The position numbers were made by a program, and so were the translations under genes. A DNA stretch of 64,000 nt from a virus. Below are positions 3,945 through 10,815 of the stretch, one piece after another. The stretch covers positions 1-64,000 of IMG/VR virus record IMGVR_UViG_3300035698_007036; one strand, 5' to 3'. The notes under the pieces are model-generated. The model saw nothing but the letters and a program-made list of their open reading frames with translations, ran no database searches and was not told the origin of the DNA. Every line of letters starts with the position of its first letter. Position 1 is the first letter of the stretch.

Positions 3945-4226
3945 ATGGGCCTATTCAATAATTATTTAGATAAGTACTTGACAAAATTAAGAAAGATGCT
4001 TATATTGTATTTAGCAGGGAAGAGGCTTCCAGTTATTCTTAATTGTAAAGTATATGACGATGTCATCAAATTTAATAAAGATGTCTACGGTGATATACTT
4101 ACTTCTAATTGCAATATAGAGAAGATAGAGAAGCACATTCAAGACGAGGCCGCTGTCATGACCAGTTGTGCCAGGAAAGGTATTATGAAGAGAGGTAATG
4201 TATTTGTCTTATCACCATGGACTTAA
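3945..4226 (+). CDS. Small basic protein of unknown function
   Basis: 93 residues. The ATG at 3945 follows gaggtgattc and the previous stop by 3 nt, so it is probably translationally coupled. The N-terminus has a hydrophobic stretch (MLILYLAGKRLPVIL) that is short for a membrane span and amphipathic. Three cysteines occur with no CxxC spacing. No family recognised. Confidence 0.6.
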   Translation: MGLFNNYLDKYLTKLRKMLILYLAGKRLPVILNCKVYDDVIKFNKDVYGDILTSNCNIEKIEKHIQDEAAVMTSCARKGIMKRGNVFVLSPWT

Positions 4227-4238
4227 AGGAGAGTTAAT

Positions 4239-4883
4239 ATGATTATTGGAATTTGTGGACGTGCACAAAACGGCAAGGATACGATAGGTAAGATGTTAGC
4301 AGATGCTCTATTTGACAAAACAGGTAATAAGTATGTCTTAATGGCATACGCCACTGAACTTAAGAAGAGAGTCCAAAAGGACTTTGACTTGAGTTATGAA
4401 CAATTGTGGGGAAGCAGTAAAGAGGTTCCAGATCATAGATACCCCAAGAATAGAAATAACCATATTGCTGGTCGTAGAGATACTGACGAGATTAAGGAAA
4501 ACTACTGGACCCCACGGGAGATCTTACAAGAGTATGGGCAGTTCTTTAGAACCATAGATTATGATTTCTGGGTCAAAGCCTTGTTTAATACGATAGATGA
4601 GAAGGCTTACAAGAATGTTATACTGACCGATGTAAGACACCCCAACGAAGCCGATCCAGTGAAGAAGCGTAATGGTTGTACAATAAAAATAGAAAGAAAT
4701 GTAGAGACCTGGGTTCACAACCAAAATCATATTTCTGAAACGGCTATGAATAAATACAAAGTAGATTTTGAAGTTAAGAATTTTGGAGATTTAAGTGACC
4801 TGCGACAAACAGCAATAGCCTTGGCTGATGCTGTAGTAAGCAGTGTCAACACCACAAAGGAAATAAAAATAATTGGAGGGTAA
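4239..4883 (+). CDS. Deoxynucleoside monophosphate kinase (T4 gp1-like)
   Basis: 214 residues with a P-loop near the N-terminus (GRAQNGKDT, residues 7-15) and the DVRHPNEA element near residue 130. Both are typical of the phage dNMP kinase family, T4 gene 1 type. The enzyme phosphorylates dNMPs to dNDPs with ATP, recycling host nucleotides or supplying phage DNA synthesis. The helical LID-like region rich in Arg (residues about 60-85) lies between the motifs. The RBS aaggagag is well placed. It is the only clear nucleotide-metabolism gene here besides the HD hydrolase at 6497, and both sit among virion-type genes. Confidence 0.85.
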   Translation: MIIGICGRAQNGKDTIGKMLADALFDKTGNKYVLMAYATELKKRVQKDFDLSYEQLWGSSKEVPDHRYPKNRNNHIAGRRDTDEIKENYWTPREILQEYGQFFRTIDYDFWVKALFNTIDEKAYKNVILTDVRHPNEADPVKKRNGCTIKIERNVETWVHNQNHISETAMNKYKVDFEVKNFGDLSDLRQTAIALADAVVSSVNTTKEIKIIGG

Positions 4884-4884
4884 A

Positions 4885-5421
4885 ATGGCTAAAATGGCTA
4901 AAATGAAAGATGTTACAGTGAGCATCGCAAAAGACAAGATTATGTATACCAATATTTCTAAGAGTGCTGATGGGTATAACTCTGCTCGTTTGGTGGCCAA
5001 GATGGGTGAAAAGGAGTATATGTCCATTTCTTACGAGTGGGAGGGCGAAGGAGTTCCTGGATTTGCTATGGATCTTATGAGCTCAATGCAGGCAGCTGAA
5101 ATTAAGTCTGGTGAGGTAGCGTCTAGTTGGGCTGAAGATTACAATGTCTGGGCTAAGAAGAAAGGCCTACCACCATGGATGAAGAAAGATGACAAAGATG
5201 GAGAAGACGAGGAAGACAATAAGGACAAGAAAGGTAAGAAGGACAAGAAGGAGAAGAAAGATAAGAAGTCCAAAGGTGCTGATGGTACAAAACCAGTTCC
5301 TGCTGACACTACTAAATCAAAATCTCCAGGAGTATGTTCTAACTGTGGTCTTGCAGATGCAGATTGTACTTGTGACGGTAAGAAACAGCTTCAGAAAACA
5401 AAAGAGAAAAAAGGGAGTTAA
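4885..5421 (+). CDS. Lys/Asp-rich protein with C-terminal Cys motif, unknown function
   Basis: 178 residues from the ATG at 4885, preceded by ggaggg at six bases. The TTG at 4873 overlaps the RBS and is rejected. Residues 1-95 form a compact domain with a conserved-looking ISYEWEGEG stretch and an aromatic pattern. Residues about 100-135 are almost pure Lys/Asp/Glu linker. The C-terminus carries CSNCG followed by CTC, a small zinc-knuckle-like Cys cluster. This modular layout resembles a binding domain tethered to a zinc knuckle. Function unknown. Confidence 0.75.
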   Translation: MAKMAKMKDVTVSIAKDKIMYTNISKSADGYNSARLVAKMGEKEYMSISYEWEGEGVPGFAMDLMSSMQAAEIKSGEVASSWAEDYNVWAKKKGLPPWMKKDDKDGEDEEDNKDKKGKKDKKEKKDKKSKGADGTKPVPADTTKSKSPGVCSNCGLADADCTCDGKKQLQKTKEKKGS

Positions 5422-7081: not shown

Positions 7082-7364
7082 AGTAGATGGCGACATAGGA
7101 GAGCTCAAGCCAGGAGCTACACCAAGAAGATGGGAACCTGAAGGAGGGGTGAACAAGCATAATGAAAGAATACATAGAGAAAGCAAAGTGATAGACAATA
7201 AAAATTTGCCTTTTACTTTCTCTAAACCAAGGAAGCCTGGGCGTCAGACAGTTTTGGCTTGTGTGGAGTGTGGACATAAAATTAGTGGTTCAATATACAC
7301 AGTAGGCCTAGTTTGCCCTGAATGTAATAAATTCGTTAGGGTTAAGGAGGTAGTTTATGCTTAG
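7062..7364 (+). CDS. Zinc-ribbon protein of unknown function
   Basis: About 100 residues. Two ATGs (7062 and 7071) share one aaggggg RBS. The second has the more usual spacing, so the first three residues are uncertain. The N-terminal 60 residues are polar and unstructured-looking. The C-terminus has a classical zinc ribbon (CVECGHK, then CPEC). It overlaps both neighbours. A nucleic-acid or protein adaptor role next to the packaging genes is plausible but not shown. Confidence 0.75.
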   Translation: MVTMDFKVDGDIGELKPGATPRRWEPEGGVNKHNERIHRESKVIDNKNLPFTFSKPRKPGRQTVLACVECGHKISGSIYTVGLVCPECNKFVRVKEVVYA

Positions 7365-7791
7365 ACGAAAATCCCCTTATGGGAGAAGAGGACGACCTCT
7401 AGGATACAAATTAACAGAAGAAAGTAAAAAGGCTATAAGTGAAGCAAAAAGGGGACAGAGGCATAGAGAAGAAACAAAAGATAAGATATCAAGGTCATTG
7501 ATAGTTCATTTTAGAAAGCAGAACCCTCTTTCAGAGGAAATAATAACAAGGTATTGTAGAATAAGTGATGATAGAACATGCGGATGGATAAATGATGTAC
7601 GTGAGGAGCTAGACGCATGTGAGGATATAATGACCCAGAGGTCTATGAGAAATTCTAGAAGAATAGAATTAACTTGTGGGGATTATATAGAGTATTTTAG
7701 TCATGAGATGACTCCAGAAATAATAACCTTGTTTGTTGAGCATTGTAAAAATAATGACTTAAATCCAGAAGAATACTTCGACAGTATGTAG
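7357..7791 (+). CDS. NUMOD3-motif DNA-binding-like protein next to terminase genes
   Basis: 144 residues. The N-terminal 50 residues carry a NUMOD3-like repeat pattern (LTEESKKAISEAKRG, then REETKDKISRSL). This modular DNA-binding motif is usually found with GIY-YIG or HNH homing endonucleases. No endonuclease motif is present and the rest is a helical domain. The gene overlaps the zinc-ribbon gene by 8 nt and precedes the terminase cluster, so a DNA-recognition role in packaging is conceivable. An alternative is a domesticated remnant of a homing endonuclease. Confidence 0.7.
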   Translation: MLRRKSPYGRRGRPLGYKLTEESKKAISEAKRGQRHREETKDKISRSLIVHFRKQNPLSEEIITRYCRISDDRTCGWINDVREELDACEDIMTQRSMRNSRRIELTCGDYIEYFSHEMTPEIITLFVEHCKNNDLNPEEYFDSM

Positions 7792-7799
7792 GAGACAAA

Positions 7800-8324
7800 A
7801 TGGCAGGAAGACCAAAGAATCCACCAAAACCTAAGAAAATGTTAAAAGAAATTATGCCTGTCAATCTCATCTTTGATCCAGAAGAGCTTGAGTTGTATAA
7901 CAATCTGGTGGATGTATATCTAAACGATTTCGACGAGAATGATTTAACGTCTGCTGATATGGATGATGTAATGGGGTTAGCTATCAATAAAGTATTAGAA
8001 ATGAGATTACTTAAGGATAGCAAAGGAGATTCGGCGAAACACATAGATGTTTCTAACGCCATGGAGAAGCTCAGAAAACAGTCAGAAAAGATGAAGGAAA
8101 ATTTATCTTCGAGACGTAGGGATAGAATAGATCCAAATAAGTATAAAGGTTTCTCTATAGTAAATCTGGCTGTAGCCTTTGATAATGAGCGTAAGAGAAA
8201 ACTAATGGACAAGCGTAATGACTTAAAAGTTAAGGAGCATGAGTCTTTAGAACAAAGAAAAGGTTATGTAGGAAATAAATACGATTCAGATGTAAAGGAT
8301 AGGGAGGAAGTAGAATATGATTAA
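7800..8324 (+). CDS. Probable small terminase-like protein
   Basis: 174 residues, starting MAGRPKNPPKPKK and continuing with acidic helices (residues 20-75), a basic helix pair and a segment with SRRRDRIDPNKYKGFSIVNL. Basic N-terminus plus helical oligomerisation region plus location just upstream of two terminase ATPase genes (8-nt overlap with the first) fits a TerS role: recognising phage DNA and loading it onto TerL. I see no unequivocal helix-turn-helix, so the call rests mainly on position and general shape. Confidence 0.55.
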   Translation: MAGRPKNPPKPKKMLKEIMPVNLIFDPEELELYNNLVDVYLNDFDENDLTSADMDDVMGLAINKVLEMRLLKDSKGDSAKHIDVSNAMEKLRKQSEKMKENLSSRRRDRIDPNKYKGFSIVNLAVAFDNERKRKLMDKRNDLKVKEHESLEQRKGYVGNKYDSDVKDREEVEYD

Positions 8325-9054
8325 CAGTAATTTAGAAAATCCAATATTGATACTCAACAGTTTCATTGGTACACAGCTGTCTCCTGTACAGACTGCTGCC
8401 TTTAATGCTATGTGGTACAATCAGCACAGTATAGAGTTTGGGTGTAGGGCCTCCGGAAAAACTTTTCTGTTGGCAGCGATGGCCATACTTTTACCTATAA
8501 TTTTTCCTAAAACAGATATAGCATCTTCAGTAGTGATATGTCCCACTTTTAGACAGTCTAAAATGGTATTTAAAGAAATACAAAAATTTTATAATAGGTC
8601 GGAATATTTTAGATCTTGCGTTATAGAGGAGCCTTTTAAAGATCAATTCGGTTGGTCTGTGAGGTTCAAAACCGGGGATAAAATAACTGGTTTAGCTGAC
8701 CTAAGTTTAAACGAAGAGACATTAGCACACCGCACCGTTTTAATAGATGAGGGTTCCAGTGTACCAAAAGAACGGATTTATAAAGTATTGGGGTTTGACG
8801 AGTCCGTCAAAACCATAAAGCCTATAGCACCTAAGACGGTAATAATGTCTACTGGAACACATACCAACAGCCATATGTATAAGTTAAGTAGCACCTTTAA
8901 TAGTTTTAGTTGGCCTGGAGGTTATTCTGTACATAGAACACCTGTATGTGACGCACCTATGGGTTGGTATGAGCTTGAAAATTTGAAGAATGTAGCAAAC
9001 CTTATTTCTAAAGAAGAATACGCAATGGAGTATGATGCTATGTTCGTTATATAA
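8317..9054 (+). CDS. Terminase large subunit paralog: ATPase domain only, no nuclease
   Basis: 245 residues. The Walker A is intact (GCRASGKT, residues 42-49), the Walker B is TVLIDEG (Asp144, Glu145), and CPTFRQSKMVFKE matches the APVFRQSKMIFSE stretch of the adjacent TerL at the equivalent place. It ends where the ATPase domain of TerL ends (EYAMEYDAMFVI against EYRMEYEAAMIAD) and lacks the RNase H-like nuclease domain. All catalytic ATPase residues appear kept, so this is not an obvious decayed gene. The RBS gaggaag and 8-nt overlap with the preceding gene support expression. It could be a regulatory packaging ATPase or a second subunit of the motor. Confidence 0.8.
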   Translation: MINSNLENPILILNSFIGTQLSPVQTAAFNAMWYNQHSIEFGCRASGKTFLLAAMAILLPIIFPKTDIASSVVICPTFRQSKMVFKEIQKFYNRSEYFRSCVIEEPFKDQFGWSVRFKTGDKITGLADLSLNEETLAHRTVLIDEGSSVPKERIYKVLGFDESVKTIKPIAPKTVIMSTGTHTNSHMYKLSSTFNSFSWPGGYSVHRTPVCDAPMGWYELENLKNVANLISKEEYAMEYDAMFVI

Positions 9055-9078: not shown

Positions 9079-10815
9079 TTGGCACACACTGATTATGAAA
9101 ACTTTGATCTAATTATGGATCAGGGGATGGACATGGTCAAGTTTTATAGGGAGAATCCATGCATTGCTGCCTACGATCTATTAAATGTTGATCTCGCACC
9201 AATACAACGAGTAGTTTTTGAGGACATGTGGTTTAGGAATTACGTTATTACCGTAGCAGGTCGTGGCTTCGGTAAGACATTTTTACTAGGCACTCTTGCG
9301 TCTTTAAGTTGCTTGTTATACCCAGGATATAGAGTTGGACTTATAGCCCCAGTCTTTCGTCAGTCTAAAATGATATTCTCTGAAGTTGAAAAGATATGGG
9401 CCAAATCGGAAATACTACAGGAAGCTACGGAAAAAAGACCTACCAGAGGATCAGATACCTGTTACCTCAAATTTAAGCCGTTCGGAGTTACGAACGGTTC
9501 TTTTATTGAAGCCCTACCACTCGGCGACGGTTCAAAAATTCGTGGATCGCGTTTCTATTTAATCCTTATTGATGAGTTAGCACAAGTCCCAGATAAAGTT
9601 CTTGATATGGTTATTCGTCCTATGGGTGCTACCACTCTAGAGCCTATGATGAATGTACGTCGTATCGAACGACAGAAGAGATTGTTAGAGATGGGACTTA
9701 TAACAGAAGATGATATGGAAGGCAATGCTGTGAATAAGATGGTGATGACTTCTTCCGGTTATTTCAAGTTTAATCACATGTGGCGTCGTATGAAGGATTA
9801 CTGGGCACAGATCGAAGAGCACGGTAATAAATCTCAATATGCTATATGGCAGGTGCCTTTCTGGGATCTTCCAGAAGGCTTTCTAGACAGGAACAATATT
9901 TCTGAAGCTAAACGTGTTATGTCAAATGCCGAATATCGAATGGAATACGAGGCGGCTATGATTGCTGATTCGGAAGGTTTTTTTAAGGCCTCGCTTCTTG
10001 AGGCTTGTACTATGGGTAGTAATTTCTCAATAGAATTACGCGGAGAGAAAAAAGCTAATTATGTTATAGGAATCGATCCTAATCAAGGGGGGGATGCTTC
10101 TTGTGGCGTAGTTGTAATAAAGATGGGTGGTATACATCAAGTGGTCAATGTCCTTGAACTTAAGAAAAAGACTACACAAGAACTCACTAAATCTGTGCAA
10201 GATCTATGTGATACCTACAACGTTGTACGTATATTTGTGGACAAGGGCGGCGGAGGTAAAGCTGTAATGGATCTATTGGAGGATGGTTATGATGGCTACG
10301 AGCCGATTATAGACAGAACCAATGATGATCACAAGCACTTACAGGGGCGGCACATTCTTGAAATGGTAAACTTCAATCCATCCTGGATATCGGATGCCAA
10401 CTTTACCACTTTGGCAATGCTAGAAGACAATAGATTACGTTTTCCAGAAGCACCAGTAATGTCAACTTTAGACACTATGGATGCAGCATTTGAGAGTATA
10501 CAGACAATGAAGTCCCAGATGCTTAATATAATAGTAACACAGACTGCTACTGGCGTATTACATTTTGATACACCAAAAAAAGGCCAGAACAAAGACTTGT
10601 ACTCTGCTATTATTCTAGCTGCCCATGGTGTTCGTATGGTACAGAAAGAAATGGAGGATGATGGAGAGCCTATTCTACATAATAATAGTGGGATGGTAAG
10701 AGGTCGTTCTGGTCAGAGTGCTTCTTGGGATCCTATAAATAGAAACAGTGGTCCTGTATTACCGGTTACTGGATCTAACCTACATTTAGCAGTATTAAAA
10801 AAGCGAATTAAGTAA
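9079..10815 (+). CDS. terL: Terminase large subunit (packaging ATPase and nuclease)
   Basis: 578 residues from a TTG start at 9079, with aggggga about 11 bases upstream. The next in-frame ATG lies 12 codons on without an RBS. The ATPase domain has Walker A AGRGFGKT (residues 60-67) and Walker B LILIDE (Asp165, Glu166). The RNase H-like nuclease domain has acidic residues Asp333 (VIGIDPNQGG), Asp388 (IFVDKGGGG) and Asp506 (NKDLYSA). The protein translocates DNA into the prohead and cuts concatemers, docking on the portal encoded 1.3 kb downstream. An ATPase-only paralog lies directly upstream. Assignment is firm. Confidence 0.95.
   Translation: MAHTDYENFDLIMDQGMDMVKFYRENPCIAAYDLLNVDLAPIQRVVFEDMWFRNYVITVAGRGFGKTFLLGTLASLSCLLYPGYRVGLIAPVFRQSKMIFSEVEKIWAKSEILQEATEKRPTRGSDTCYLKFKPFGVTNGSFIEALPLGDGSKIRGSRFYLILIDELAQVPDKVLDMVIRPMGATTLEPMMNVRRIERQKRLLEMGLITEDDMEGNAVNKMVMTSSGYFKFNHMWRRMKDYWAQIEEHGNKSQYAIWQVPFWDLPEGFLDRNNISEAKRVMSNAEYRMEYEAAMIADSEGFFKASLLEACTMGSNFSIELRGEKKANYVIGIDPNQGGDASCGVVVIKMGGIHQVVNVLELKKKTTQELTKSVQDLCDTYNVVRIFVDKGGGGKAVMDLLEDGYDGYEPIIDRTNDDHKHLQGRHILEMVNFNPSWISDANFTTLAMLEDNRLRFPEAPVMSTLDTMDAAFESIQTMKSQMLNIIVTQTATGVLHFDTPKKGQNKDLYSAIILAAHGVRMVQKEMEDDGEPILHNNSGMVRGRSGQSASWDPINRNSGPVLPVTGSNLHLAVLKKRIK

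Follow-up and report, generated by a model that had tools for sequence, protein, structure and literature searches.

Packaging motors are usually viewed as rings of identical TerL subunits. In the case of the D6E TerL, isolated ATPase domains form pentamers, and without the nuclease, kcat is 458 instead of 7.8 per min, a ~59-fold increase (PMC5727402), so that an ATPase-only protein could, in principle, be both active and oligomeric. The fingers of D6E (R158) and phi29 (R146) are located between alpha3 and beta4 (PMC5727402). Another comparable system is defined by location: the gap between the small terminase (TerS) and TerL genes of Pseudomonas phage JBD26 holds the Tab and anti-Tab morons, with a 1-bp overlap between anti-Tab and TerS (PMC10884400), and is, accordingly, a known moron slot.

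The DNA analyzed here is a 64,000-nt stretch (hereafter, the window) of a 119,536-bp virus record (IMGVR_UViG_3300035698_007036), in which a gene for an ATPase-only TerL paralog lies between a probable TerS and a complete TerL (Table 1). This protein has in common with the TerLs of T4 (gp17), P74-26 and D6E the fold, the P-loop with its cis arginine, the Asp-Glu of Walker B, the coupling motif, and the FRQxK and MEY stretches, and differs from them in the absence of the nuclease domain, the IRG finger loop and TerL residues 180-205, and in adjoining a complete TerL. The likeness to Tab and anti-Tab consists in the placement of an accessory gene in the TerS-TerL gap and in the overlap with TerS, which is seen for anti-Tab and the window gene alike; Tab itself, in contrast, is an 83-residue protein without similarity to proteins of known function that blocks tail assembly (PMC10884400). 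There is little room for doubt that the window gene is a real gene that comes from a TerL ATPase domain, lacks the nuclease along with the residues specified below, has a counterpart with matching losses in a related phage and occupies an accessory slot. A limited search of the open-access literature found no earlier description of such a gene.

The ATPase-only gene and its neighbors

The ORF starts with ATG, 9 nt downstream of AGGGAGG, overlaps the upstream gene by 8 bp, and appears to be translationally coupled to it. The upstream gene is labeled TerS because of its fixed position before TerL in 104 distinct relatives; comparison of its 174-aa product with Pfam and PHROG yielded no convincing match. 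The GC content and codon usage of the ATPase-only gene are like those of its neighbors, and a search for direct repeats flanking the gene found none. The encoded protein is alignable to TerL across the entire ATPase domain (29% identity to the window TerL over 281 alignment columns, BLASTP E 1e-25; E 9e-8 for the TerL family phrog_2) and is the only TerL-like match in the whole record besides TerL itself. It ends at the equivalent of TerL residue 295, whereas the match of TerL to the RNase H-like nuclease model (PF17289, E 4.8e-9) covers residues 330-472, thus beginning 35 residues beyond that end point, and the C-terminal nuclease is absent from the ATPase-only protein. The ORF and the alignment thus bear out the sequence-only reading, which had described a gene with Walker A, Walker B and the FRQSKM stretch of TerL that lacks the nuclease, stops at the equivalent boundary, overlaps a probable TerS gene (a TerS by synteny) and sits alongside a complete TerL. 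The idea of a split TerL was ruled out, the adjoining TerL being complete.

Table 1. Coordinates of the ATPase-only genes, the neighboring genes and the residues discussed in the text (window positions except for the last line).
Feature	Position	Strand	Basis or remark
Probable TerS, 174 aa	7800..8324	+	Synteny; no domain match
Ribosome-binding site (AGGGAGG) for the ATPase-only gene, located within the upstream gene	8301..8307	+	Sequence
ATPase-only TerL paralog, 245 aa	8317..9054	+	ORF, TerL alignment, fold model
Walker A, P-loop R44 to T49 (RASGKT)	8446..8463	+	R44, G47, K48 invariant in alignment
FRQSKM stretch, residues 78-83	8548..8565	+	FRQ.K common to both ATPase-only proteins
Walker B Asp144-Glu145	8746..8751	+	Invariant
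Coupling motif S178-T179-G180	8848..8856	+	S and G retained; central S replaced by T in both ATPase-only proteins
Complete TerL, 578 aa, ATPase and RNase H-like nuclease	9079..10815	+	PF03237, PF17289, phrog_2
TerL R155, aligned with P74-26 trans-finger R139	9541..9543	+	No counterpart in the ATPase-only protein
TerL residues 180-205, alpha3-beta4 side	9616..9693	+	Gone from both ATPase-only proteins
Second ATPase-only gene, 235 aa, related contig L174	3995-4702		

The structure of the ATPase-only protein predicted by AlphaFold2 from 59 aligned sequences has a pLDDT of 88.5 and a pTM of 0.88. In the PDB, this model best matches the T4 gp17 and P74-26 TerL ATPase domains; next in order come HK97 TerL and a TerL in complex with the defense protein Avs3. 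By both alignment and model, the protein is an ASCE-type ATPase domain, the N-terminal domain of TerLs, and has Walker A, Walker B and the P-loop arginine.

Directly before TerS, the window carries a 144-aa gene with a NUMOD3 motif (7357-7791, +), which is typical of homing endonucleases; similar genes precede TerS also in the related contigs L019 and L174.

ATP-site residues kept and lost

Across 45 TerLs of the phage clade, 70 columns of the ATPase domain are at least 97% conserved; the window ATPase-only protein keeps 36 of these compared with 34 of the 208 variable columns (Fisher p 2e-8). Apart from the motifs in Table 1, the kept residues include Q25, G47-K48-T49 and the C-terminal MEY. 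Two segments are lost, namely most of TerL 145-159, including the invariant loop KIRGSRF that precedes Walker B, and the whole of TerL 180-205, as a 26-residue deletion. The TerL R155 within the first segment aligns with the arginine that is mutated to alanine in the P74-26 entry 4znj (‘mutant R139A’ in the structure library); although this alignment as a whole scores poorly (E 0.14), an RG motif just before Walker B is common to both proteins. The deletion falls in the D6E/phi29-type finger stretch. As judged from these alignments, both known trans-acting arginine positions (P74-26 R139 and D6E R158) are missing in the window protein. An alternative alignment (A5), in which the KITG of the window protein is paired with the KIRG of TerL, is unlikely given a predicted hairpin (strands 113-117 and 122-126), and the R155 arginine is missing under this pairing as well as without it. 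A substitute finger might be provided by R139 of the window protein itself, an arginine at the start of the Walker B strand, or, in the second ATPase-only protein, by its R158 equivalent. Furthermore, the 180-205 region is also short in the MaeS-like TerLs, so that its loss need not abolish function. The statement of the sequence-only reading that the ATPase residues are intact therefore holds for the cis residues but not for the trans ones.

This pattern bears on the possibility of a working second motor subunit that forms a mixed ring with TerL and hydrolyzes ATP via the finger of a TerL neighbor, the nuclease being dispensable in some of the subunits. The intact cis residues, the fold kept in the model and the coupled arrangement in one operon with TerS and TerL are in line with such a subunit, which is nevertheless hardly probable because the trans-finger loop and TerL 180-205 are lost in both ATPase-only proteins, interface-type conserved columns are lost as well, and the relatives manage without the gene. 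Recruitment of a TerL-derived ATPase to a non-packaging task, such as DNA or RNA remodeling, would account for the loss of TerL-specific interface residues and agrees with the presence of helicase-type ATPases and NAT10 among the weaker matches, but is rather improbable given that, in both phages, the gene is part of the packaging module or close to it and that the TerL-specific FRQxK and MEY stretches are retained.

Distribution, a second gene and origin

The arrangement of TerS, an ATPase-only gene and TerL is rare. None of the 104 distinct TerS-TerL junctions in relatives contains a window-type ATPase-only gene, and TerS and TerL abut in all of these but one; few bases are present at the junction in the closest relative found (L004, TerL 83% identical). 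The exception is L019, where an insert of 898 bp codes for a 294-aa protein (4120-5004) that matches a CapR domain and, weakly, an REase and is probably a mobile endonuclease with CapR-type zinc domains. Pattern search of viral_contigs and genome_contigs with the window protein found no relatives, and in annotated phages, the only similar genes are those with a TerL annotation or the size of a TerL. When 121 related records, which are often fragments, were searched in full, one further ATPase-only gene came to light, in G049/L174, and a pattern based on both ATPase-only proteins retrieved nothing new but the full-length TerL of a 296-kb virus (L245). Thus, looking for the same gene pair elsewhere, as the sequence-only reading had proposed, produced a single related phage that has an ATPase-only gene, at a different site. 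As is characteristic of a moron, the window gene is an extra gene in an otherwise conserved module and is absent from relatives.

Several shorter ORFs that match the ATPase profile were dismissed. Those of less than 400 aa in L106, L126 and L127 are interrupted TerLs, not ATPase-only genes, and the others are truncated by contig ends. In L106, TerL is broken by an in-frame TAA near position 4359, and in L126, it is split across several frames with inserted DNA; sequencing error, an intron or recoding may be behind these breaks. In 12 other relatives (L026, L028, L029, L032, L034, L037, L039, L042, L043, L047, L048 and L241), TerL open frames span ~920 to 1450 aa, with in-frame interruptions at residue 67 (Walker A) and/or approximately residue 95 (FRQS|K stretch), as expected of inteins located at ATP-site motifs; the window TerL, unlike those of many relatives, is uninterrupted. 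The L241 contig (JAGLZA010000033.1), from a candidate division WOR-3 MAG, is also the sole match to the window TerS in species-representative bacterial and archaeal genomes, possibly a hint at the host, possibly a binning artefact.

The second ATPase-only gene is present in two contigs that are almost identical (99.9% over 2861 bp) and represent one related phage. An HD-domain gene and a 107-aa gene are its immediate neighbors, and the TerS that accompanies TerL is three genes further on. It resembles the window gene in the domain boundary, the 26-residue deletion of TerL 180-205, the missing R155 equivalent and the location in an accessory slot near TerS; the model of its product is very confident (pLDDT 94.8) and has the same structural matches. 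Unlike the window gene, it is inserted at another site, encodes a protein much closer to its own TerL (46% identity) and keeps the R158 equivalent. On either side of the gene, there is a 13-bp direct repeat, GGAGAGGAATTAA (L174 3983-4702), which includes the ribosome-binding site, as if the gene had been inserted through this repeat; in relatives, the empty site has a single similar copy of the repeat before the 107-aa gene. Relatives have, in this slot, genes read as HNH-type endonucleases, a uracil-DNA-glycosylase-like gene or small unknowns. Because both sites hold unrelated accessory genes in relatives, both ATPase-only genes can be considered to occupy accessory-gene slots.

The scarcity of the gene, the missing nuclease, the lack of a close relative among those found and a long branch (4.48 changes per column) are also what would be seen if a TerL gene had been duplicated or imported and what is left of it were decaying. 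Such decay is unlikely, in agreement with the sequence-only reading, because the frame remains open at 29% identity (the chance of 245 open codons at the base composition of the gene is P ~1e-8) and has a ribosome-binding site, the ATP-site residues are kept, the fold model is confident, and the second protein keeps the same subset of conserved columns. The two ATPase-only proteins share 28 kept conserved columns, compared with 20 expected (p 2e-4), a count that does not amount to a codon test and that common ancestry would raise too.

In the phylogenetic tree, the two ATPase-only proteins are joined, inside the TerLs of the clade (91/95). However, constraining each of them to group with its own TerL is not rejected (p-AU 0.45 and 0.51). 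Alone in the tree, the window protein forms a long, unplaced branch. Shared replacements are weakly in excess (10 compared with 4.3 expected) at the loosest threshold and non-significant at stricter ones. The trees are compatible with either one origin of the ATPase-only genes or two separate duplications within the clade.

Possible roles at the packaging motor

The best reading of these observations is that the window gene encodes a TerL-derived accessory (‘moron’-like) protein that would bind ATP and act either on the motor or on a factor that recognizes it. A modulator or competitor of the packaging motor ranks first, given that the finger is missing and that the gene is rare, fast-diverging and located in an accessory slot; a decoy ranks second, with a regular motor subunit less probable and decay unlikely. 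That the protein acts on a packaging motor at all is a tentative proposition, with the chances falling slightly short of even. Under the modulator scenario, the protein would be expressed, bind ATP and dock on TerL or a TerL partner, TerS or the portal; from the trans-finger mechanism, an ATP-binding TerL domain without a finger would be predicted to sit at an interface between subunits and prevent firing of the next one. Because donation of a finger is seemingly impossible for such a protein, the outcome would be modulation, with the firing of the ring delayed, capped or blocked, rather than driving of DNA. The target could be the phage's own TerL, for control of timing or length, or the TerL of a competing phage, for interference. 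In its most specific form, which is possible but somewhat unlikely, this scenario involves a finger-less ATPase, arisen once or twice in the clade, that enters or caps the ring as a dead-end subunit and thereby acts as an intrinsic brake or else poisons the packaging ring of a competitor. Of the two functions suggested by the sequence-only reading, a second motor subunit is thus weakened by the loss of the trans arginines and the absence of the gene from nearly all relatives, and a regulator is favored.

The decoy scenario, in which a mimic of the ATPase half of TerL occupies TerL sensors (Avs-type STAND) or anti-packaging factors and spares the real TerL, shares part of its evidence with the modulator, namely, the rarity, fast divergence and accessory location of the gene. 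The presence of the Avs3-bound TerL (8dgc) among the structural matches of both models and of the defense pair Tab/anti-Tab in the TerS-TerL gap of Pseudomonas phages (PMC10884400) points in the same direction, but the former match reflects only the fact that the ligand of Avs3 is a TerL, and a mimic of the ATPase domain could equally trigger the sensor, so that this explanation is unlikely.

If the window protein is indeed an ATP-binding, finger-less paralog of TerL, it would be either a regulator within a hetero-subunit ring or a mimic deployed in phage-phage or phage-host conflict, and in either role, would be a natural tool for determining the number of firing subunits that the motor needs.

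Elsewhere in the window, a 331-aa protein (643-1638, +) has a full-length match to the actin-like Volactin (PF25216, E 1.7e-57), and a 24-kb ORF of 8048 aa with a PhageMin_Tail domain (32474-56620, +), probably the tape-measure protein, takes up more than one-third of the window.
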